Source: a virus. Taken from it: 23,955 bases of DNA. Each line of letters starts with the position of its first letter. Positions within the stretch are counted from its first letter, which is position 1. Location of the stretch: IMG/VR virus record IMGVR_UViG_3300035698_006332, positions 1 to 23,955 of that record; one strand, 5' to 3'. The notes beneath the pieces are model-generated. The model did no database searches and was not told where the DNA came from. It saw only the letters and a program-made list of their open reading frames with translations. Below, piece after piece: positions 834 through 23,955 of the stretch. Made by a program: the position numbers and the translations under genes.

Positions 834-1860
834 CGATTTCTTTAGCGTAGTCGATCGGATTCTTCGATAAAGCAAATACCTTCTTATTCTTTGGATACAC
901 CGCTTGGTATCCTTTCTTAACATATTTGGAATACAAGTAATCGATATACCACTTTGGTAATTTCTGCTGATAGAAATCTTCATAAACTGCGATGTATAAT
1001 TTTACGATTTTGATCACACCAATACCGGTTTCGACATTAGTTTCCAGAACCCAGATCTTGTCATTCTCATCTAACACGATGTCTAGAGAATAGATATTCA
1101 TATCCATTTTTTTGCGAATCTTTTTGGCAATGGCAATAACCTTATCCTTAAATGCTACTCTGTTGTTTTGGATAACATATGTAAATTCTACACTCTCGTC
1201 TGCTTTCTTATTATCAATGCTAATAGCGTCTCCATCCGCGATTCGTTCATTGATTTCAATGATTTCTTCGTTCACGAAAAATACTCGGTACTCTCTTTTG
1301 AAGTTGATGTATTCACTGAACAGGTCGAATTTATCTTTCGATTCCTTTAATTCTTCAACAGTCTCAAATTTCTTAATACCTCTTCCTGAATGCCCGCCCT
1401 TTGGTTTGGCAACAATAGGAAATTTCAATTCGGTTAGTGCCTTCGTTTTACTCTTAACAGTTTTAGGCATGAAAGATTCACCTGCAAACGTTTCATAGAA
1501 CTTCCATTTATCTCCTGAGATTGCTCCGGATTCCGGACAGTTGTAAAGGTTCTTCTTTGCAACACTTCTCTTCTTCAAAAATGTTTTGGACTCAGTATTG
1601 TTACTACTGTAATAAATGATTGGACAGGCCTTATCAATATCCGTTTGATGTGCTTTCTTTTTAGATAGATCTATATTTTGGAATAACTCATCTATAACCT
1701 TAGCGTTCAATTTATGAACCTTGTCCGTATTGTAACCCATCAAAGATATTTGAGAATTGTTTTTTCTCAGGAAATAGACTTTCTTATTATAGAGTTCTGG
1801 ATCTTCTTTAACTGCTATAGTTTTAGGATCAAAATTTTCAAACCGTTTAATGTGTTTCAT
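784..1860 (-). CDS. ATP-grasp (RimK/D-Ala ligase-like) enzyme with packaging-tag-like N-terminus
   Basis: The protein has 358 residues from the ATG at 1858-1860. The open frame runs upstream to 1926, but that extension crosses a terminator hairpin. I chose the inner start because it gives MKHIKRFENFD, the N-terminus shared by many genes here. The ATP-grasp signature is visible: FPIVAKPKGGHSGRG (about 147-161) is the nucleotide-binding strand and glycine loop, EYINFKREYRVFF (183-195) carries the basic residues, and SLDIVLDENDKIWVLETN (258-275) supplies the acidic/Asn metal ligands. The family ligates a carboxylate to an amine or thiol through an acyl phosphate; the substrate here cannot be read from sequence. 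A TATATA box lies 4 bases before the start. The tag suggests head packaging, but its cleavage site is imperfect (RFE, not LxE). Confidence 0.8.
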   Translation of the reverse strand: MKHIKRFENFDPKTIAVKEDPELYNKKVYFLRKNNSQISLMGYNTDKVHKLNAKVIDELFQNIDLSKKKAHQTDIDKACPIIYYSSNNTESKTFLKKRSVAKKNLYNCPESGAISGDKWKFYETFAGESFMPKTVKSKTKALTELKFPIVAKPKGGHSGRGIKKFETVEELKESKDKFDLFSEYINFKREYRVFFVNEEIIEINERIADGDAISIDNKKADESVEFTYVIQNNRVAFKDKVIAIAKKIRKKMDMNIYSLDIVLDENDKIWVLETNVETGIGVIKIVKLYIAVYEDFYQQKLPKWYIDYLYSKYVKKGYQAVYPKNKKVFALSKNPIDYAKEIAKLMLETCHQDLAFDV

Positions 1861-8346: not shown

Positions 8347-8520
8347 ATGAAACACATCAAATTATTCGAAGCGTATAGTAGAGGTGAAATTATATTTCAT
8401 GGTTCAAACGTACATCCAAGCAAATTTGAGATTGATGATGACTATGATGCGATGGAAGAACCTGGTAATGAAAATGTATATGAGGTAGATTTACCCAGGA
8501 ATGATGTTTCTCACAACTGA
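8347..8520 (+). CDS. ADP-ribosyltransferase-like protein, N-terminal fragment upstream of a frameshift
   Basis: This 57-residue frame is short. It starts MKHIKLFEAYS, the shared tag of this window, and continues RGEIIFHGSNVHPSKFE. That pattern, His after two hydrophobics and followed by Gly-Ser, is the first motif of H-Y-E type ADP-ribosyltransferase folds. It ends NENVYEVDLPRNDVSHN at TGA 8518-8520. The rest of the fold continues in the +1 frame (8501-8785). Deleting one C from the CCC at 8494-8496, or slipping +1 at CCC AGG, joins them as DLPGMMFLTTD to make one 145-residue protein. It is therefore either a broken gene, a sequencing indel, or a recoded gene. Confidence 0.65.
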   Translation: MKHIKLFEAYSRGEIIFHGSNVHPSKFEIDDDYDAMEEPGNENVYEVDLPRNDVSHN

Positions 8521-8785
8521 CATCCGAGAAGCTGGATCTTATGGCGATTACATAATTCCTTGTAAGTTGCTTACTACAGACATCAAATTATACGAGATTG
8601 ACACAGATAATCCATCCAGAGAATGGGATGACGATTTTATGGGATTTGGCAAATACGGAATGTACTCGACCATGATGAATGATGGATTTGATGCAGTTGA
8701 AATAAAGGGATACAGAAAATCAACGTTTGTTGCATTTACTAATGTCATTAAACCTCAGATGAATCTAATAGACGAGTATAACTAA
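8501..8785 (+). CDS. ADP-ribosyltransferase-like protein, C-terminal part in the +1 frame
   Basis: The 94-residue frame begins MMFLTTDIREAGSYGDYIIP, which matches the second ADP-ribosyltransferase motif (strand, T-x-D, then A-x-x-Y-G). It ends with GFDAVEIKGYRKSTFVAFTN, typical of the last strands of the fold. On its own it lacks the first NAD-binding motif, which is in the preceding frame. Upstream this frame is closed by TAG at 8486-8488, so any frame change must occur between 8489 and 8517. The stop TAA overlaps an ATG at 8785 that opens only a five-codon frame. Confidence 0.65.
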   Translation: MMFLTTDIREAGSYGDYIIPCKLLTTDIKLYEIDTDNPSREWDDDFMGFGKYGMYSTMMNDGFDAVEIKGYRKSTFVAFTNVIKPQMNLIDEYN

Positions 8786-8820
8786 TGAAGCATTTAAGGT
8801 AAAGGCATGAAGCATTTAAG
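8785..8820 (+). repeat. Duplicated gene start (14-bp direct repeat)
   Basis: ATGAAGCATTTAAG occurs at 8785-8798 and again at 8807-8820, 22 bases apart. The first copy encodes M-K-H-L-R and then meets TAA at 8800-8802. The second copy is the start of the 295-residue ADP-ribosyltransferase-like gene. It looks like a small tandem duplication of the start region, or a remnant from gene rearrangement. Confidence 0.8.
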
Positions 8821-9694
8821 ATCATATAAACTCTTTGAATCAACGGATGACCCAGCTTTTGTAACAGGCAAAAAGAAAGGTGATCTACTGTTCCACGCGA
8901 CCGGTGAAGAATTTGGTCCAGAAGGATTACACGGTGGATTCTATGACAAAGTTCTATGGACTGCTGAAGATTCAGGAATTGCTCAAATGTATATTCCAGT
9001 ATCTGGAGGAACTAGTTATATGTCAGCAGAAAGTATTGCTCGACCACATGAAGATTCAACCATACGAGATATTCAGCAAGCGATCGGTATAGAATATGAT
9101 TATGATGAAGTCGAATGGGGCAACATGGGAAGACCACAATCATGGAAACCTGCCGAGATATGGGATCAAGTCAGAGACATGAATCATTGGGACGGTGAAA
9201 AATTCAAGATGCAGTACATTAAAAATAAATTGAAAGAGGTCTATGGATATGAACCTTGGAGTGAAGATACCCGATCTGTATCATTTGCAATCAAAACTAA
9301 GGTCGGTAAAGTCATGCCAGCAGACTATAAAATGAAAGGACGACTATTCATTATAGATGTTGAATCCGATCTAAAAATATATGACATGACAATGGGCGGG
9401 CAAATCGATGGAGACCTTGGGGACCTTGATTACCACAAACTCAACCAATTCGAGATCCTCGAGAAGAAAGGATTCGATGGTGTAAAGATCAATGACTTCG
9501 CACAAAGCAAGTCGGAAGGAAACTTTGGACACACGTCAATTGGACTCTTCCCTAAAGGAATTCAGAAGTGTTCTTGGAAGATCTTACCGGATGTCGTACA
9601 CCCAGAAGATGTCGAGCGAATGTTCAAGGAAGGAGACTGGTCAAGTCAAGAATATTTGGACTTCAAAAAGTTGATTACAATAAAAGAAAAATAA
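8807..9694 (+). CDS. ADP-ribosyltransferase-like protein with packaging-tag-like N-terminus
   Basis: The protein has 295 residues. It begins MKHLRSYKLFES, a version of the shared tag with an LFE motif at residues 9-11. The fold is suggested by DLLFHATGEEF (about 26-36; the His of an H-x-T motif), KVLWTAEDSGIAQMYIP (about 49-65; the T-x-D, A-x-x-Y motif) and a late KGFDGVKINDF segment with TSIGLFPKGIQ, similar to the end of ADP-ribosyltransferase folds. The insertion between the motifs is larger than in the neighbouring gene. Such enzymes transfer ADP-ribose from NAD to a target; T4 Alt is a head-packaged example. The target here is unknown. The family assignment is by motif reading and is uncertain. 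Confidence 0.65.
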   Translation: MKHLRSYKLFESTDDPAFVTGKKKGDLLFHATGEEFGPEGLHGGFYDKVLWTAEDSGIAQMYIPVSGGTSYMSAESIARPHEDSTIRDIQQAIGIEYDYDEVEWGNMGRPQSWKPAEIWDQVRDMNHWDGEKFKMQYIKNKLKEVYGYEPWSEDTRSVSFAIKTKVGKVMPADYKMKGRLFIIDVESDLKIYDMTMGGQIDGDLGDLDYHKLNQFEILEKKGFDGVKINDFAQSKSEGNFGHTSIGLFPKGIQKCSWKILPDVVHPEDVERMFKEGDWSSQEYLDFKKLITIKEK

Positions 9695-16436: not shown

Positions 16437-17705
16437 ATGATATTTGAAGATTTAATAGCAAAACCGGGTCAAGAAGTATTCATTCTCGAAAGAAGTGAAT
16501 CTAATCTTGCGGTTGTAGATAAGAAGGCGTATATCCTTGAAGGAATCGCTGCAGTCTTCGGACAAGAGAACAATAACGGTAGGATTTACGAGGAGAATGA
16601 ATACATGCCTCACCTTGAATACCTTATAGAGAAGATCAACGCTAAACGTTTAGTTGGTGAACTTGATCATCCGGAAAAATTCGATGTATCTCTTAAACAC
16701 ATCTCACACATGGTTGAGAGTTTAAGCTACGATAAGGATTCACGTCAGTTAAAAATTAAAGTAAGACTTCTTGATACTCCAGGTGGACGTATAGCAAAAA
16801 CCTTAGTAGATGCTGGAATTCCAGTTTCGATTTCATCTAGAGCCGCTGGTTCTGTTATGGAAAACAAGAGAGTTAAGATCAAAAAGATTTTCACATATGA
16901 TCTCGTTGCAGATCCTGGTTTCGAAAAAGCTCAATTAGAAAGAGTTTACGAATCCGCACAATTCGGAGCGTCCGTTACTAGGGTTCTAGATAAGGGTTCG
17001 ATCACGGAGGGATTGCATGAAATTACAGGCTTGCCTGCTAATATGAAGATGTACAATATTGATGAATCAGAAAATACCTCATTCCAATTAGCGGTAGAGG
17101 GCAAACAAAACCAAAATACAGACATGTCCGAATTTGTAACTGTTGATGAAATGAATGAGTATTCAGCGATCATCAAGAAAACTATCGATGAACTAAAGAC
17201 TCAGATTAAAGAAAATGCGAATACTGCTACTCCAGTTCTGGATGAAGCTGTATTAGGACGACTTACAAAACTTGAAAAGTACACTAAGTATATCGCTGAG
17301 AATGTTGATAAGAACATTCAGTATTCTGAATACCTAGCCGAGTCACTTGATAAGGACATCGAGTACACTAAGTATATCGCTGAGAATCTAGACCGCAACA
17401 TTACATTCTCTGATTACTTGGCTGAGAATGTAGAGAAGAACATTTCTTACTCTGAATACCTAGCAGAGAATCTAGACCGTAATATTACTTATTCTGAATA
17501 CCTAGCTGAGAACTTAGACAGAAACATTTCTTACTCTGAGTACCTAGCAGAAAATGTTGATCGCAACATTACTTATTCTGAATACTTAGCTGAGAACCTA
17601 GACAGAAACATTACATATTCTGAATACCTAGCAGAGAACCTAGACAGAAACATTACGTATTCTGAATATCTAGCTGAGAATCTTGATGGTAACATCTCAT
17701 ACTGA
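16437..17705 (+). CDS. 21: Prohead protease (T4 gp21-like) with a 14-residue repeat tail, ending at an in-frame TGA
   Basis: The protein has 422 residues up to TGA 17703-17705. Protease domain (1 to about 170): NNNGRIYEENEY (45-56), RLVGELDHPE with catalytic His 78, LLDTPGGRIAKTL (111-123), VSISSRAAGS with catalytic Ser 133/134, and YDLVADPGF (154-162). These match the gp21-type maturation proteases of T4-like phages, which cut scaffold, capsid and internal proteins after (L/I)-x-E. From residue 282 a 14-residue repeat, consensus YSEYLAENLDRNIT, runs ten times. In the eleventh unit the Ser codon (TCT elsewhere) is TGA. The frame then stays open through more repeats and a scaffold-like domain to 18413; read through, the product would be 658 residues. 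It directly precedes the major capsid gene, as in T4. Confidence 0.9.
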   Translation: MIFEDLIAKPGQEVFILERSESNLAVVDKKAYILEGIAAVFGQENNNGRIYEENEYMPHLEYLIEKINAKRLVGELDHPEKFDVSLKHISHMVESLSYDKDSRQLKIKVRLLDTPGGRIAKTLVDAGIPVSISSRAAGSVMENKRVKIKKIFTYDLVADPGFEKAQLERVYESAQFGASVTRVLDKGSITEGLHEITGLPANMKMYNIDESENTSFQLAVEGKQNQNTDMSEFVTVDEMNEYSAIIKKTIDELKTQIKENANTATPVLDEAVLGRLTKLEKYTKYIAENVDKNIQYSEYLAESLDKDIEYTKYIAENLDRNITFSDYLAENVEKNISYSEYLAENLDRNITYSEYLAENLDRNISYSEYLAENVDRNITYSEYLAENLDRNITYSEYLAENLDRNITYSEYLAENLDGNISY

Positions 17706-17810
17706 GAATACCTAGCAGAGAATCTTGATCGTGGAATCGGTTATTCCGAATACCTCGCTGAAAAGATCGAACGCAACATCGCATATTCCGAATATATCGC
17801 GGAAAGTGTA
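17280..17810 (+). repeat. 42-bp coding tandem repeats (14-residue units, about 12.6 copies)
   Basis: Units begin at 17280 and every 42 bases after that. Units 1-4 are diverged (YTKYIAENVDKNIQ, YSEYLAESLDKDIE and so on), units 5-10 are nearly identical (YSEYLAENLDRNIT), unit 11 contains the TGA, unit 12 reads YSEYLAEKIERNIA, and unit 13 is partial (YSEYIAESV). The 14-residue period equals two heptads and predicts a long amphipathic helix. Third-position differences between units show that the array is not a very recent expansion throughout. Confidence 0.92.
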
Positions 17811-17861
17811 AACAGTGAAGCTGTTGAAGTTGCACTAGACGAAAAGAAGAAAACAACGAAG

Positions 17862-18413
17862 ATGGATTACAACAATCTATCTGAATCTATAACAACATTG
17901 CTTGAGAGCGCTAACAACCAAAAAGCAGCCAGTAAGCTATATGAGACGCAGTACAAATTTTTCAGATTCCTCGGTGAGGAGAAGAGAGAGGAGTTTACAT
18001 CTCTAAACGAGACCAAGAAAGAAAAGGTCGCCAAAGCACTAAATGATGGTGCATATTTCTCACAAGCGGATATAACTCAGAAATGGGATGCCGCATTAGT
18101 AGAGCAAGAGGAGCAAGAGAAAGCTCCGTTGTTTATCCAGTTAATGCCTGAAAGTATTAAACCACTTTGGGAATCTGCTTCCACACAGGAACAAGAGAGA
18201 ACATTCGCTGCAAGTAAACTTCGCAAGCTCGAGACTGCATACCAAATCAAGAACTTCTGGAAGTCCAGAGCTTTTGTGAAGGGACAGACACTTGGACTTG
18301 TTAAGCTAAACGAGAATCAAACTACTGCTAAGACAAAGCCAAATCAGAACGGAATTTCTAATGATTATATGGCCGGAGTTGCTGACGCTGTAGGAAAAAG
18401 ATTCGGAAAGTAA
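17862..18413 (+). CDS. Scaffold/core-like C-terminal domain of the protease gene, possible internal-start product
   Basis: This 183-residue frame is in phase with the protease gene, 52 codons after the TGA. It is charged and helical (KKEKVAKALNDGAYFSQADI) with a conserved-looking end: LFIQLMPESIKPLWESAS, ERTFAASKLRKLETAYQIKN, FWKSR. This resembles the head-core scaffolding region that some T4-like phages carry in the same gene as the protease. ATG 17862 follows a purine-rich stretch and could start a free scaffold protein, similar in logic to nested scaffold genes such as lambda Nu3 within C. Otherwise the domain is reached only by TGA readthrough. The major capsid gene starts 34 bases after its stop. 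Confidence 0.75.
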   Translation: MDYNNLSESITTLLESANNQKAASKLYETQYKFFRFLGEEKREEFTSLNETKKEKVAKALNDGAYFSQADITQKWDAALVEQEEQEKAPLFIQLMPESIKPLWESASTQEQERTFAASKLRKLETAYQIKNFWKSRAFVKGQTLGLVKLNENQTTAKTKPNQNGISNDYMAGVADAVGKRFGK

Positions 18414-18447: not shown

Positions 18448-19974
18448 ATGAAAATGATTAACGAAACAGAGGTGTTTGAGGATTGGTTTCCACTTATTGA
18501 AAGTAAGACCGATATTTCTGACCCTTACAAAAAAGAATGGTTAGCGAAATACTCGCACTACCATGCTCTTAACGAATCTTCAGTTCACTCTGGATTCAAC
18601 ACTCTTGATGGTATGAACGGTCAAGGAGCTCCTTTAGCTCCAGGTCGTGGTGCTGACGGGTCTGGTGATAAATTCCCATCACTTCTTCCACTTGCAATTC
18701 AGGTTGCTGCGAAGACTGTAGGATTTGACATCGTTCCAGTTATCCCAATGCCAGGACCAACAGGTGTTCTTACGTACCTAGATTACGTATACGCTGGTGG
18801 TACTCTTGGATCAACTGCGCACAAAGCACTTACGATTAAGACAAACATTTCCGGTACCTGGACTTCAGGAACCGCTTATAATGCTGTTGCTGGTGCAAAT
18901 ACTCTTATTGTAACTTTTATCGGTTATTCAAGAATTGATGCTTACCCAATCTTCCGTGTTTCTCAGACTGGATCTACTCCAACTGATTTGCCTATCTCTT
19001 CCTTCTTTGGAACTGCTGGTGCAACTGTAACATCTGATGCTGCTGTTGTTGATATTGCTGTTAACTCAGCGGAACTTGTTGCTGCACTTGAAGATCACGT
19101 TGCCGGTTTTGCTGGTGCTGGAGATGATGACAGAGACGCATGGGGAGGACCTTACACAGAAGATCCAGAAGCAAACGGACCTATGAACAGAGAAGTTGGT
19201 GAATCAACGTATTACAGATCTATGGGTCTTAAGACGTTCACTAAGTTCGTTGAGGCTAGGACTTACCAGGCTGCTGCTTCAGTTACGACTGAGCAAATCC
19301 AGGATCTTAACAAGCAATTCGGTATTGACGTTGTGTCAATGGTTGAAAACGCTCTTGTTAATGAAGTATCACAAGCTATTAACAAGCACATCTTAGGATC
19401 TGCATTTGTTCTTGGTGGAACTAACGCTGCACAATTTGCTGCATCAGAAGGAGCTTCACTTAATCTTGACCTAACTGCTCTACCAACTGTAGGTACTTTC
19501 GAGAACCTACAAACATTCCAAAGAAGAATCTTCTCTAAGATCCTTGCTGCTGGTAATGTTGTTGCTAACAGAGGACGTAGAGGACCAGCAAACTTCGTTG
19601 TAACAAACGCACAGGTTGCTACCGCTATCCAGGATATTTCTCAGTTCGTTGCTGCACCTTTCGCAAACACTGCAACTCAGAATAACGGATCACTTTACCC
19701 AGTTGGAACCCTAGCGGGAATGACTGTATACGTTGACCAAAACATGAGATGGAATGATACTCGTGTTCTTGTTGGACGTAAAGGTGGTGACGATGAGCCA
19801 GGACTTAAGTTCATGCCGTACATGATGGCCGAGTCTATCCAGACTATTGCTGAAGGTACAATGAGCCCTAAGATCGCGGTTAAGTCACGTTATGCGCTTG
19901 TTGAGGCTGGTTTCCACCCACAGACAATGTACATTACACTTAGCATCACGGTGCCCACAGCCGGCATAGTTTAA
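18448..19974 (+). CDS. 23: Major capsid protein (T4 gp23-like)
   Basis: The protein has 508 residues. It has a typical gp23 layout: a removable N-terminal segment, then FPSLLPLAIQVAAKTVGFDI, VIPMPGPTGVLTYLDYVYAG, a variable Thr/Ala/Gly-rich insertion (about 130-235), YYRSMGLKTFTKFVEARTYQ, AAASVTTEQIQDLNKQFGID, RGRRGPANFVVTNAQVATAI and MTVYVDQNMRWNDTRVLVGR. It forms the HK97-fold shell hexamers. A probable prohead protease site is HALNE, cutting after E43 (L-N-E); LIE at 16-18 is another candidate. The leader is A-rich. The gene ends the head operon at a strong terminator. Confidence 0.93.
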   Translation: MKMINETEVFEDWFPLIESKTDISDPYKKEWLAKYSHYHALNESSVHSGFNTLDGMNGQGAPLAPGRGADGSGDKFPSLLPLAIQVAAKTVGFDIVPVIPMPGPTGVLTYLDYVYAGGTLGSTAHKALTIKTNISGTWTSGTAYNAVAGANTLIVTFIGYSRIDAYPIFRVSQTGSTPTDLPISSFFGTAGATVTSDAAVVDIAVNSAELVAALEDHVAGFAGAGDDDRDAWGGPYTEDPEANGPMNREVGESTYYRSMGLKTFTKFVEARTYQAAASVTTEQIQDLNKQFGIDVVSMVENALVNEVSQAINKHILGSAFVLGGTNAAQFAASEGASLNLDLTALPTVGTFENLQTFQRRIFSKILAAGNVVANRGRRGPANFVVTNAQVATAIQDISQFVAAPFANTATQNNGSLYPVGTLAGMTVYVDQNMRWNDTRVLVGRKGGDDEPGLKFMPYMMAESIQTIAEGTMSPKIAVKSRYALVEAGFHPQTMYITLSITVPTAGIV

Positions 19975-20049: not shown

Positions 20050-20457
20050 ATGAAGAACATAAAATTATTTGAAAAATATTTCGATGCGGATATTGAGGAT
20101 ATTGAATGGGTAGATGAAAATATATATCGACCAAAATCTAATGCAACATTCACTAATACTACAGACCCTTTATTTTTAAGATTGAATTCTAAAGACGTGT
20201 ATATAACAACAGATGGATCTACGTATGGATTAGAGATTAAAGATCAGATTGAATTATATGATCTTACTTGGTTAAAGGATTTAAAATATGCCATAATTGG
20301 TGAAGCTCAGAAACAAACAAGTATTAAAACTTCAGGACTGTTTGTACATGACATTACAGAAGATGGTGAAACAATTGAGTTGCTTATAGTCAATAAAAAA
20401 TTAGAAGTTGATCAAAATTGGTTTATGTCCACAAAAATATATTTGGGATTACCCTAA
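20050..20457 (+). CDS. Hypothetical tagged protein, paralogue of the next gene
   Basis: The protein has 135 residues. It starts MKNIKLFEKYF, the shared tag with an LFE site. The body has DPLFLRLNSKDVYITTDGST, YGLEIKDQIELYDLTWLKDL and ends DQNWFMSTKIYLGLP. The following gene repeats this pattern (LFVLLNSKEGYNDNNGRTYG, EVKDQLEPWDMSWAKGMKY, EWFMVTKVHMGLD), so the two are tandem paralogues. No known family recognised; it looks like a small beta-rich domain. If the tag is a packaging signal, both would be internal head proteins. Confidence 0.72.
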   Translation: MKNIKLFEKYFDADIEDIEWVDENIYRPKSNATFTNTTDPLFLRLNSKDVYITTDGSTYGLEIKDQIELYDLTWLKDLKYAIIGEAQKQTSIKTSGLFVHDITEDGETIELLIVNKKLEVDQNWFMSTKIYLGLP

Positions 20458-20474
20458 TTAAAACACAAACACTA

Positions 20475-20912
20475 ATGAAGAACATTAAACTATTCGAAGA
20501 TTACGAAGGCATGGGAAGAGAGCATTCTAGTAGTGCTATTAACACTCGACCATTAGCTGAAGAACAAGTCTTCAGACCTAAAAAAGGATCTGACGCATTT
20601 CCAGAGAATGAAAATCTATTTGTACTATTGAATAGTAAGGAAGGTTACAACGATAACAATGGTCGAACATATGGTCCTGAGGTAAAGGATCAGCTTGAAC
20701 CATGGGATATGTCCTGGGCTAAAGGTATGAAGTACATACACATTCAATTAGATGGAAAGGATCTAGAGTTATACAAAGGAATAGGTGAAGGTGGAATATA
20801 CATTTACGAAACTCAATTGGATTTTGCTTGGTTAGGTTGCATCACTGACAAAGAATTGAATGATGAACAGGAATGGTTCATGGTTACTAAGGTTCACATG
20901 GGATTAGACTAA
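20475..20912 (+). CDS. Hypothetical tagged protein, paralogue of the preceding gene
   Basis: The protein has 145 residues from ATG 20475, giving MKNIKLFEDYEGMGREHSSS. An in-frame Met at 20418 would overlap the previous gene and bury the tag, so I reject it. The N-terminal linker is longer than in the paralogue. The shared core and end are described under the preceding gene. The stop overlaps the next ATG as TAATG. Confidence 0.72.
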   Translation: MKNIKLFEDYEGMGREHSSSAINTRPLAEEQVFRPKKGSDAFPENENLFVLLNSKEGYNDNNGRTYGPEVKDQLEPWDMSWAKGMKYIHIQLDGKDLELYKGIGEGGIYIYETQLDFAWLGCITDKELNDEQEWFMVTKVHMGLD

Positions 20913-21187
20913 TGAAGAACTTAAAACTATATGAAGAGTTCTCACAGCAACTTGATGAGAAGAAAGATCAACGTAAGCCGACGTCAATGGATTACTTACG
21001 AATCAATGATATGAGTATTAAAGCTGATGGAGATGATTCTAAGATGCAACAACTCGCACAAAAGATGGCCAACTCAATCACGAATGCAGATAAAGCTATT
21101 CGTAGATTCTTAGCAGCAGAAGATGATAACTTCCATAGTATTGCTAGGATCTTCCACGATCGTGCCCGTGACTTAGGAGCAGTATAA
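20912..21187 (+). CDS. Hypothetical tagged small protein
   Basis: The protein has 91 residues, starting MKNLKLYEEFSQQLDEKKDQ (tag with LYE). The remainder is helical (DSKMQQLAQKMANSITNADK, RRFLAAEDDNFHSIARIFHD). No catalytic motif seen. Its start overlaps the previous stop. It lies 13 bases before the HD hydrolase gene. Confidence 0.68.
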   Translation: MKNLKLYEEFSQQLDEKKDQRKPTSMDYLRINDMSIKADGDDSKMQQLAQKMANSITNADKAIRRFLAAEDDNFHSIARIFHDRARDLGAV

Positions 21188-21200
21188 ACACATCCACATT

Positions 21201-21815
21201 ATGGGATTAAAACATCTTCTACTATACGAGAAGTACGATAATAATAAACTGAAGCTGTCCCAACGGCAGAAGGCCTTATTTGAATGGGTTAAAGCCTGGC
21301 ACTTTGATGATGGTGTTGAGCAAGTACGTAAATATTCCGGTGATCCATACTGGACACACCTATTATCAGTAGCCAACCGAGTTTATGAATATGTTAAGGA
21401 CGTAACAGAGATCGCTCTTTGTCACGATGTTATCGAAGACACTGATTGCACATACGAGGATCTCGAGAATTATTTACTGGGTAACGGCTACAAGAAAGGC
21501 GAAACCAAGAAGATTGTTGAAGGTGTACGGGATCTAACCGATGTGTACACCACAGAAGACTATCCTAAGATGGCTAGGAAGCAACGTAAGGATCTCGAAG
21601 CAGAACGACTAGGTAAGATAGCTCCGAAGTCACAAAGCGTCAAATACGCCGACCTTATCGATAATGGTATTTCCATTACAGATAACGATATAGGCTTTGC
21701 ACGTACATACGTTGTAGAGAAAGGAGACATCATGCGTCAAATGAGAAATGGTAACGGAGCATTGCTAAAACAAGTTGATCAGATCCTTAAAAAGAACCTG
21801 GAACTAATCCGATAA
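21201..21815 (+). CDS. SpoT/MESH1-like HD-domain (p)ppGpp hydrolase with tag-like N-terminus
   Basis: The protein has 204 residues. Metal ligands of the SpoT/MESH1 HD fold are visible: H53 in YWTHLLSVANRVYEY, H75-D76 and E79-D80 in IALCHDVIEDTDCTYEDLEN, and D151 in VKYADLIDNGISI (147-159). The linking segment VEGVRDLTDVYT and the basic stretch PKMARKQRKDLE also fit. This subgroup removes the 3'-pyrophosphate of (p)ppGpp. No synthetase domain is present, so it would lower alarmone levels. The N-terminus MGLKHLLLYEKYD is a diverged version of the shared tag (LYE at 8-10), which raises the possibility that the enzyme travels in the capsid. A related nucleotide could be the substrate instead. Confidence 0.82.
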   Translation: MGLKHLLLYEKYDNNKLKLSQRQKALFEWVKAWHFDDGVEQVRKYSGDPYWTHLLSVANRVYEYVKDVTEIALCHDVIEDTDCTYEDLENYLLGNGYKKGETKKIVEGVRDLTDVYTTEDYPKMARKQRKDLEAERLGKIAPKSQSVKYADLIDNGISITDNDIGFARTYVVEKGDIMRQMRNGNGALLKQVDQILKKNLELIR

Positions 21816-21821
21816 TCCAGA

Positions 21822-21827
21822 TATATA
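21822..21827 (+). promoter_or_regulatory. TATATA box 4 nt before ATG 21832
   Basis: CAGATATATACTTC then ATG, the same arrangement as at 20040-20045. It lies just after the hydrolase stop. Confidence 0.35.
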
Positions 21828-21831
21828 CTTC

Positions 21832-22122
21832 ATGAGGGTGAAGGGGTTTAGGAGCGGTATTGGATCTGGACGAATGGTAGAGGGTGAGACACTTGCAGAA
21901 TTCTGTGTACAGTGTGACGTTACATTAACACTTATAGAGGGTAATATGCTTGATGGATTGGAACTAATCGTTACCAATTACAACAACAAAACTGGCCAGG
22001 CAACTATCATGTTTGATAGATCTATTTCAGAAACTGCTGCCCTCACCATTCTTAGTAAAAACGACCTATTGATCTATGATGATTTTAATGATCAAGATTC
22101 TAGTGGTTTTACCGATATATAA
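21832..22122 (+). CDS. Hypothetical protein
   Basis: The protein has 96 residues, with a basic Gly-rich start (MRVKGFRSGIGSGRMVEG) unlike the tag of its neighbours. A beta-rich body follows (DVTLTLIEGNMLDGLELIVT, NYNNKTGQATIMFDRSISE) with an acidic end (YDDFNDQDSSGFTDI). No family recognised. The end of its frame contains another TATATA box (22116-22121), 21 bases before the next gene. Confidence 0.62.
   Translation: MRVKGFRSGIGSGRMVEGETLAEFCVQCDVTLTLIEGNMLDGLELIVTNYNNKTGQATIMFDRSISETAALTILSKNDLLIYDDFNDQDSSGFTDI
22116..22121 (+). promoter_or_regulatory. TATATA box upstream of the Lys/Glu-rich protein gene
   Basis: CCGATATATAAAG overlaps the previous stop codon and is 21 bases before ATG 22143. 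Possible promoter core, by context similarity. Confidence 0.3.
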
Positions 22123-22142
22123 AGAAACTAACTAATCAATCA

Positions 22143-23123
22143 ATGTTAATAAATTTCAAACAGTTTGAAAAGGCAAACGCCATCTTAGAAAGCAGATCAC
22201 CAGATGGTGCTAGTGAACAACAACTATTTGAGGCCGGACTCACTAGAGACGACCTAATGATAGTTAACGAAGGTTTATTAGGTGACATCTTTGGTGGTTG
22301 GTTTAAAAAGATGAAAACCGTTATGCTTCGTAAGATGCCAGGTGGCGTTCTGAAGCAGGTCGATGCTATTGTTAAGAAATACGAGGAAGAGAAAATGTCC
22401 TTGATGAAGAAAGGCCTCGGTGAAAAAGAAAAGATCTTCAAAGCAGAATTATCTGCAGAAGAAGAACCTACTGCTGCAAAACGATATGATCAAATTATTG
22501 ATAGATCAAATCAGGCATTGACAGCAATCAAAAAGGCATCGAATGCCAAGATCGGTAAATTCAACACTGAGCTAGAGCAAATCGCAGAAGATAAGAGCGA
22601 GATGGTCACACAATATATCAACTTAAAAATTGCAGAAGTTAAAGAACGTGTTGCGATGGAAGAACTTAAGGAGATCGAGAAATTTGCTTCTGAAGAACAA
22701 GTACAAAAGTCTGCTGATGAAGTAGAAGCCAAGAAGGTTAAAAGAGAAGCTACACAGAAAGAATTAGAAGAAGTATTAAAGGCTGCCGAAGATCTTCCTG
22801 GTATTGATGCTAAGAAAGGTGAAAAGTGGATTCGTAAGAATAAGAAGGGTGAAGAAGTTGTCGTCGAATTGATGGCCGATCCAAATGCAACGAAAGAAGG
22901 TGAAGTACAGGTTAAGGGTGAAACTAATACCGAATATTCTTGTTCAGTCAATACGCTTATCAGAAACGTAAAAGACGATAACGAGGAGAAAAAGGAAGAG
23001 AAGCCTGAGAGACCAGAAGCACCACCAGCTCCAGAAGACAAGAAGAAAAAGAAAAAGAAAGCTGAGAAGCCGAAGAGACCAGAGACTCCCAAGTCAAAGA
23101 TCAATAAAATCGAGGAAGAATGA
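22143..23123 (+). CDS. Lys/Glu-rich coiled-coil protein, candidate internal head or core protein
   Basis: The protein has 326 residues. It starts MLINFKQFEKANAILESRSP, with a tag-like FKQFE and an I-L-E site at 14-16, then a possible further site (LFE in EQQLFEAGL). Residues about 85-220 are highly charged helix (KKYEEEKMSLMKKGLGEKEK, EQIAEDKSEMVTQYINLKIA). From about 275 the tail is nearly all Lys, Glu and Pro (EKKEEKPERPEAPPAP, DKKKKKKKAEKPKRPE) and must be disordered. The repeated (L/I)-x-E motifs and composition recall proteins processed by the prohead protease. No enzymatic motif. Overlaps the next gene as ATGA. Confidence 0.7.
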   Translation: MLINFKQFEKANAILESRSPDGASEQQLFEAGLTRDDLMIVNEGLLGDIFGGWFKKMKTVMLRKMPGGVLKQVDAIVKKYEEEKMSLMKKGLGEKEKIFKAELSAEEEPTAAKRYDQIIDRSNQALTAIKKASNAKIGKFNTELEQIAEDKSEMVTQYINLKIAEVKERVAMEELKEIEKFASEEQVQKSADEVEAKKVKREATQKELEEVLKAAEDLPGIDAKKGEKWIRKNKKGEEVVVELMADPNATKEGEVQVKGETNTEYSCSVNTLIRNVKDDNEEKKEEKPERPEAPPAPEDKKKKKKKAEKPKRPETPKSKINKIEEE

Positions 23124-23785
23124 AATTAAAAACCTTCCATAGTTTTGAGCGACTATATGAAGCCGCTTTATTTGAAGGACTGTTTGATAAGTTCGCCAAA
23201 GATCTTGCTGTGGACTACCGTCCAGAACTTGCAGCTTTGAATCCTATGTTGAATGAATATTCTCAGATAAAGAATAACAGTGCTGATCAACGTATTAAAA
23301 AAGAAGCTGAGCTTTTGAAAGCTGTAGATTCTAAAGATACAGAGAACCTTAACAATGATCTAGTGAAGATCAATAATGATGAGGAAAAGAAGATTGAGGC
23401 CGTAAAGAAGAAACTTGCTGATTGGACTGAGAATCTACCAGGCACATTAACATTCTTAATGAGAAGTCGTTTGGAAGAGATAGATCTTGAAGTTATGGAA
23501 GAAACTTTGCGTAAGGCAACAGAGATGCCTGAGCAAGCCAAGGAACGATTGGAAGACATAATTGAGTCTACTAAAGATGCACTTGATTCATCCGTTGCTA
23601 AACTAGAGAAGATGATTGCAGGTGAAGATTCTGAGGATGACGAAAAGGATCTTGATGACGCTAAGAAAAAGAGAGGTGAATCGGAAAGTGATTATGATGC
23701 TTCCGGTGATGTTGACCGTGCGGAAAAAACCGTGAAGAAACAAAAGGATAAAAAGGCGGAAGATGATCCGTTAAACCAAATATAA
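23120..23785 (+). CDS. Charged coiled-coil protein with tag-like N-terminus
   Basis: The protein has 221 residues. It starts MKLKTFHSFERLYEAALFEG, with an LYE and an LFE motif close together at 12-19, then helical segments (QRIKKEAELLKAVDSKDTEN, EEKKIEAVKKKLADWTENLP, PEQAKERLEDIIESTKDAL) and a disordered acidic/basic tail (EDSEDDEKDLDDAKKKRGES). It resembles the preceding gene in composition and position, so the pair may be internal head proteins. Coupled by ATGA. The next tagged gene begins 3 bases after its stop. Confidence 0.7.
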   Translation: MKLKTFHSFERLYEAALFEGLFDKFAKDLAVDYRPELAALNPMLNEYSQIKNNSADQRIKKEAELLKAVDSKDTENLNNDLVKINNDEEKKIEAVKKKLADWTENLPGTLTFLMRSRLEEIDLEVMEETLRKATEMPEQAKERLEDIIESTKDALDSSVAKLEKMIAGEDSEDDEKDLDDAKKKRGESESDYDASGDVDRAEKTVKKQKDKKAEDDPLNQI

Positions 23786-23787
23786 GG

Positions 23788-23955
23788 ATGAAGCACATTA
23801 AACTATTCGAAAATTTTGAAGATAAATATGATTCCACTATGGATGATTTCGCCGAACGTGCCGATTTCTTTGAAGGAGCAATTGATCAATATGGTGCAAC
23901 TTATGGCCAGCGTAAAGAGGCGATAGAAGTAGCACAAAACCTTTTCATGGATATG
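23788..23955 (+). CDS. Tagged hypothetical protein (3' end outside window)
   Basis: The first 56 codons are visible, starting MKHIKLFENFEDKYDSTMDD, a clear copy of the shared tag with LFE. The remainder is helical (FAERADFFEGAIDQYGATYG, QRKEAIEVAQNLFMDM). No stop occurs before the window edge. It lies 3 bases after the previous stop, with AAGG before the ATG. Confidence 0.75.
   Translation, partial: MKHIKLFENFEDKYDSTMDDFAERADFFEGAIDQYGATYGQRKEAIEVAQNLFMDM

Follow-up and report, generated by a model that had tools for sequence, protein, structure and literature searches.

Why do about ten mostly unrelated proteins, encoded on one short piece of virus DNA, begin with nearly the same peptide? 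The question is raised by IMG/VR record IMGVR_UViG_3300035698_006332, whose 23,955 bases (the window) carry a gp21-like protease, a gp23-like capsid protein and a ribonucleotide reductase and come from an uncultured large T4-type phage. We found that this N-terminal peptide, MKHIKLFE and variants of it, aligns with the capsid-targeting sequence of T4 internal proteins, moves between proteins as a module and occurs together with an array of a similar motif inside a protease–scaffold fusion. With a probability of roughly 0.8 we regard it as a T4-type capsid-targeting tag, through which its carriers would bind the head core, be built in, be clipped by the protease and be ejected with the DNA.

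An N-terminal tag on proteins of the window

Ten such peptides had been listed in the preliminary description of this DNA, and open reading frames (ORFs) with the expected N-termini begin at all ten coordinates (Table 1; protein starts were taken as the first ATG). Two aromatic residues stand exactly three apart in eight of them (1860 on the minus strand, 8347, 8807, 20050, 20475, 20912, 21201 and 23788), at positions 7/10 or 9/12 and mostly as [F/Y]E-x-[F/Y]. The remaining two, 22143 and 23120, are loose fits without the aromatic pair and with several LxE↓[ASG] sites each (↓, cleavage point). From 20050 onward, ORF 21832-22122 is the sole untagged gene.

The N-terminal tag is real. Within the first 12 residues, [FY]Ex[FWY] was found 8 times among the 37 window proteins versus 7 times across internal sequence as a whole (14.7-fold, p=1.1e-7), and the reversed motif showed no significant N-terminal enrichment in the window. 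Three large related contigs had tags at or just inside the N-termini of 14/549, 18/449 and 22/510 proteins versus 11, 4 and 6 internal-methionine matches; because the contigs are fragmentary, such per-genome counts are lower bounds. Viral contigs contained at least 120 stretches with the tag, 3 with an equally degenerate permuted peptide and 10 with another MK-peptide. A search of bacterial genomes (257 Gb) with a narrower version of the tag gave 2 stretches only, one on a phage-like contig in a metagenome-assembled genome (MAG), the other apparently a chance match. Both a tagged gene and, on a nucleotidyltransferase-like protein, a further tag-like start (MQLKTFTEFQMVNEA) are present on a phage-like contig of a MAG labelled 'Pseudomonas' (L443:2730-2756). 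Generic tag patterns had no match in Tenacibaculum phage PTm1 or Chryseobacterium phage MA9V-2.

Conservation of the peptide in relatives

Relatives in IMG/VR were selected with the pattern MK[N/H]IKLFE only, so that the tag-bearing loci were chosen on the tag itself and positions 9–13 were unselected. The five residues that followed were nevertheless Q-F-[IV]-N-E, and the next position was enriched in A and S, giving MKHIKLFE-Q-F-[IV]-N-E↓[A/S] as the full tag. Among 147 relatives, F10 was present in 119, an aromatic at position 10 in 141 and E13 in 97. In a set of 138, E13 stood out from an otherwise flat profile (91/138), and a hydrophobic-x-E sequence ended at position 13 in 73.

The 131 copies of MKHIKLFE were encoded by 55 DNA spellings, so what is conserved is the peptide and not the DNA, as third-position codon differences within the window had already suggested. 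A-rich codons and AT-rich upstream regions would suit an A-rich 5′ end that aids translation initiation, or recombination in which a DNA module reshuffles the starts of genes. The number of spellings, a constraint that extends in fixed register to residues 10 and 13, and the scarcity of the permuted peptide make either effect highly improbable; the translation-start explanation was rejected on spelling diversity and the permuted-peptide control.

Descent from recent duplicates that kept a common start has equally little to recommend it. The 20050 and 20475 proteins look like paralogues by inspection (unscored), and five consecutive genes in L084:1880-5241 have a longer start in common (MKHIKLFEDYSDEEL..DLIGDLRSVG), perhaps a tag extended by duplication. 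Nevertheless, 135 tagged proteins could be aligned only across MKHIKLFExFxxE, with a mean column identity of 5% and conservation stopping at residue 13, and the tag sits on different folds. The description of the carriers as mostly unrelated holds, with 20050 and 20475 as apparent exceptions. Duplication had been named as the explanation that would undo the idea of a tag; the alignment together with the codon spellings excludes it for the set taken together.

The tag is modular. ATP-grasp orthologues with 35–40% identity bear the tag of their own lineage (MKHIKRFENF in the window, MKFIKPYEEF in the 462-kb huge phage LR756500 and MQYVKLFEEFIYEE in L145), and a relative in G002 has the deviant start MKKLMKFGEY. 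The alarmone-hydrolase-like HD protein of the window is tagged, and none of the seven homologues compared, one of them in LR756500, is. In G048 an adenylate kinase domain begins at residue 27, directly after the tag. LR756500 has its own spelling, MKYIxEYEEFLNEA, with 17 matches versus 3 for the control.

Register with the T4 sequence and the predicted cleavage site

Suppressor analysis of T4 IPIII has assigned residues 4 and 7 mainly to targeting and residues 8 and 10 to processing, and aspartate at position 10 still permits targeting (PMC9026906). Counted from the final Glu, F7, F10, [IV]11 and E13 of the tag fall on Y4, F7, I8 and E10 of IPIII. As judged from this alignment, the aromatics of the tag correspond to the residues that govern targeting in T4, and its closing [IV]-x-E to the T4 processing site. 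A scan of T4 with the corresponding rule recovered two genes with the start MKTYQEFIAEA. A 54-residue open frame of T4 (L398:18966-19127), starting MKTFKEFIKED, also fits the capsid-targeting rule.

Cleavage had been expected directly after LFE or LYE. Glu8 of LFE aligns with Gln5 of T4, a residue to which no processing role has been ascribed, and the next residue is Q in about one-third of relatives. Since it is the conserved E13 that aligns with T4 E10, the gp21-type site predicted for the family is [IV]NE13↓[A/S], and a cut after LFE would probably fall five residues short of it. The end of the tag, [IVL]NE↓[A/S], resembles the site predicted at residue 43 of the gp23-like capsid proteins, which is LNE↓S in 19/20 relatives and LNE↓N in 1/20. 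In phage PAU, N-terminal sequencing showed that the capsid protein is shortened from 585 to 520 residues, a loss of about 65 (PMC5646251), and this cut falls within one residue of LME64↓N.

The window tags keep the targeting half and mostly lack the processing half. Position 13 is K, G, A, M, Q or similar, which makes canonical trimming doubtful, and most of these tags may escape cleavage or be cleaved at another place. Because the E13 site is mostly missing here, LFE↓A in 8347 and LFE↓S in 8807 could still serve as cut sites in this phage. Placed on a reporter in T4, the MKHIKLFEQFINEA tag would be expected to be cleaved and the window tag MKNIKLFEKYFDAD not to be.

A similar motif repeated in the protease–scaffold fusion

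The window tags are encoded beside the gp21-type protease (phrog_207) and the gp23-type capsid protein (phrog_138). The protease was fused to 3–15 copies of a motif, YSEYLAE↓N, which mostly form units of 14 residues, in 20/20 tag-bearing contigs whose protease was read; relatives of the window have 12–15 regular 14-residue units and some others only 3 recognisable copies. At loci found via the capsid gene, the protease ORF ran through the motif copies into a scaffold-like C-terminus in 73/84 cases; a search with the protease query alone gave one relative. This co-occurrence of tag and array in a protease–scaffold fusion is a new finding. In the window an in-frame TAA (17703-17705) breaks the fusion frame, and a sequencing error, a mutation and a natural split are indistinguishable as its cause. 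A structure model of the protease and core had low confidence (predicted local distance difference test, pLDDT, 51; predicted template modelling score, pTM, 0.24), and its long helix for the array is unreliable.

Aligned with T4 MKTYQEFIAEA, the array unit NITYSEYLAEN is identical at T3, Y4, E6, A9 and E10. As the two lie in the same register, we propose, as a hypothesis only, that the tag might be one unit of the core repeat that has become detached. Alternatively, the likeness could be convergent, both sequences having to be protease substrates; an (L/I)xE-type site alone leaves the two aromatics unexplained. The motif common to T4 and the array, [FWY].[EDQK][FWY][ILVM][AGSN]E, was scanned in seven sequences (the window, G002, G036, G048, T4, PAU and 400 of the 462 kb of LR756500; 577,000 residues, motif arrays excluded). 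Of its 29 matches, 21 lay within residues 1–14 of a protein (p=2.4e-19), and the N-termini of the window itself had none.

Probable head loading and its alternatives

By analogy with T4, targeting, cleavage and ejection would proceed as follows. The aromatics at positions 7 and 10 would bind the prohead scaffold core while each cargo protein is made, and the unrelated tagged proteins would thereby be built into the core. After closure of the shell, the gp21-like protease would dismantle the core and clip tags ending in [IVL]NE↓[A/S/G]; the freed cargo would remain in the head and leave it together with the DNA. In binding the core, the tag would imitate the repeat YSEYLAE↓N. A more far-reaching version, to which we give somewhat less than an even chance, has the head core as a polymer of capsid-targeting motifs, of which one N-terminal copy would get any protein built in, set free by the protease and injected, with dozens of effectors per phage.

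The tagged proteins might instead be expendable scaffold or core that is degraded or lost at maturation, so that nothing functional is injected. In T4 the core proteins gp22, gp67 and gp68 are cut to pieces (PMC5694885), and the 22143 and 23120 proteins have several scaffold-like LxE↓[ASG] sites near their starts. We consider this unlikely, because many intact enzyme folds (ATP-grasp, HD hydrolase, adenylate kinase, 2H phosphoesterase, CHAP and GNAT) make little sense as expendable core. Rather less likely again is a head-independent role, with the tag directing proteins to a membrane, a replication compartment or the host polymerase, or acting as a stability signal. Such a role would agree with the scattering of most tagged genes in large contigs, far from head genes; it is at odds with the exact T4 register, the capsid-like NE↓[A/S] end, the motif shared with the protease–core array and the association with a T4-type protease. 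In contigs of at least 140 kb, a T4-type protease or capsid gene (or both) was present in 14/15 tag contigs and the protease in 3/9 tRNA-selected control contigs. For the protease alone the figures were 13/15 versus 3/9 (p=0.02) at this length and 23/44 versus 6/35 (p=0.002) for contigs of at least 50 kb. The tag itself was found in 0/35 control contigs.

Several points weigh against head loading. The comparison of tag and control contigs is not like for like, as the controls were searched for the protease and not for the capsid gene. Among the window tags, the full T4 rule including the processing site had 0 matches. T4 gp21 and gp22 were not among the array-type matches, so the idea of imitation cannot be transferred to T4 as it stands. 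The label 'internal capsid protein' of PAU gp142 and gp154 carries no stated evidence, and a literature search for virion proteomics of tag-bearing phages, PAU included, found none; gels alone are available for MA9V-1, and proteomics exists for RaK2. The earlier proposal of a T4-like targeting tag on varied proteins near a gp21-like protease has good support from the register, the protease association and the cargo diversity; its point of cleavage and its wording as a set of enzymes call for revision.

If head loading is right, the tag is probably a predictor, from sequence only, of proteins carried in the head and probably injected by uncultured large phages. The array would also suggest a simple answer to what the tag binds, a point unsettled in the T4 papers cited here. 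Both head loading and imitation can be tested in the cultured phages PAU or T4.

Putative cargo

Several tagged proteins have recognisable folds (ATP-grasp and HD hydrolase among them) and most have none, so that 'enzymes' describes a part of the set. Pfam matches comprised 2H phosphoesterases (Acb1, 2′-5′ RNA ligase), GNAT, adenylate kinase, CHAP and ATP-grasp. The 2H phosphoesterases of L125:982-1518 and L163:1897-2439 scored above the Pfam cut-off for Acb1 (anti-CBASS), with similar scores for the 2′-5′ RNA ligase family, and that of L181 scored below it. No report of Acb1 in virions was found in a literature search. A tagged GNAT protein (L203:4330-5577) has a sub-threshold ADP-ribosyltransferase match.

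In the window, the similarity of the 21201-21815 protein to SpoT/Mesh1 makes it a candidate for head cargo that clears alarmones. The gene at 8347/8501 has an FHGS...FLTTD pattern that does no more than hint at an ADP-ribosyltransferase, and to call the 8347 and 8807 proteins by that name is a guess. Frames 8347-8520 and 8501-8785 overlap and apparently form one gene frameshifted at about 8501-8520. The 8807 protein had no relative in Pfam, PHROG, PDB, phage records or viral contigs, and its single-sequence AlphaFold model was useless (pLDDT 33).

Since T4 IPI and IPIII act against host defences (PMC3012670; PMC9391042), early counter-defence would be the natural reading of the cargo. The list of proteins predicted to be carried would gain alarmone-hydrolase-like, Acb1-like, adenylate-kinase, ATP-grasp and possibly ADP-ribosyltransferase-like members, and on the imitation reading the injected effectors would include candidate counter-defence and alarmone-clearing enzymes.

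Comparison with known head-targeting systems

A capsid-targeting sequence on IPI, IPII, IPIII and Alt of T4 was reportedly described by Mullaney and Black in 1996. Like it, the tag is a short N-terminal peptide on unrelated proteins, with an aromatic pair three apart, a gp21-type protease and, in many relatives, a hydrophobic-x-E site. Unlike it, the tag is 3 residues longer, is spelled MKHIKLFE, has at least a dozen carriers per large contig and stands on many more enzyme folds; in addition, the processing site is missing from most tags of the window, and the motif array in the protease–core fusion was not detected in T4.

In Sphingomonas (Sphingobacterium) phage PAU, the tag type MKTLTKLYEAKLNEA had 17 N-terminal motif matches (control 0), many of them close to the genes for portal, protease and capsid. 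PAU, whose gp142 and gp154 are labelled internal capsid proteins, thus has an N-terminal motif set with the xNE↓A-type end seen here; the spelling differs, K replaces the second aromatic, and protease and scaffold are separate genes. In SPN3US/phiKZ-type phages, too, ejected proteins lose N-terminal propeptides to the head-maturation protease (PMC5694885). These phages belong to another head lineage, and their propeptides are mostly >100 residues long, whereas conservation of the tag ends at residue 13. The passages searched in the report on bS21-encoding phages of freshwater Bacteroidetes (PMC9723584) make no mention of a tag or repeat array.

Features and relatives of the window

The capsid protein of the window shares 82% identity with that of L003, 74% with that of a contig of 373,759 bases and some 46% with that of LR756500. 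Lak phages and phages infecting Bacteroidetes are among the next named relatives, and the host phylum is judged from such named relatives only. Relatives of the 22143 protein downstream of the capsid gene retain a VNE/INE↓G site.

Table 1. Tags and head genes of the window
Feature	Position	Strand	Support
MKHIKRFENF tag, ATP-grasp protein (784-1860)	1831..1860	-	open frame, aromatic pair; tagged orthologues in LR756500, L145
MKHIKLFEAY tag; protein seems to run on in other frame at 8501-8785	8347..8376	+	open frame, aromatic pair
MKHLRSYKLFE tag, 295-aa protein	8807..8839	+	open frame, aromatic pair
gp21-like prohead protease, repeat array and scaffold-like C-terminus	16437..18413	+	phrog_207 6.8e-38; frame intact in L003, L004
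14-residue unit YSEYLAENLDRNIT, ~13 tandem copies	17280..17807	+	inside protease–scaffold fusion
gp23-like major capsid protein; cut predicted at LNE43↓S, with E encoded by 18574-18576	18448..19974	+	phrog_138 4.4e-37
MKNIKLFEKY tag	20050..20079	+	open frame, aromatic pair
MKNIKLFEDY tag	20475..20504	+	open frame, aromatic pair; apparent paralogue of 20050 by inspection
MKNLKLYEEF tag; candidate cleavage site LDE, residue 16	20912..20941	+	open frame, aromatic pair
MGLKHLLLYEKY tag, SpoT/Mesh1-like HD hydrolase (21201-21815)	21201..21236	+	phrog_990 7.7e-26; Mesh1 3nqw 5.6e-6
MLINFKQFE loose tag, protein of the head cluster; sites ILE↓S, LFE↓A, IVNE↓G	22143..22169	+	
MKLKTFHSFERLYE loose tag with LYE↓A, LFE↓G sites	23120..23161	+	
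MKHIKLFENF tag; window end truncates gene	23788..23817	+	open frame, aromatic pair

Beside the capsid gene of L004, the segment 11600-17800 has short, GC-rich-looking ORFs on both strands that differ from the flanks, possibly a chimera or a foreign insert.

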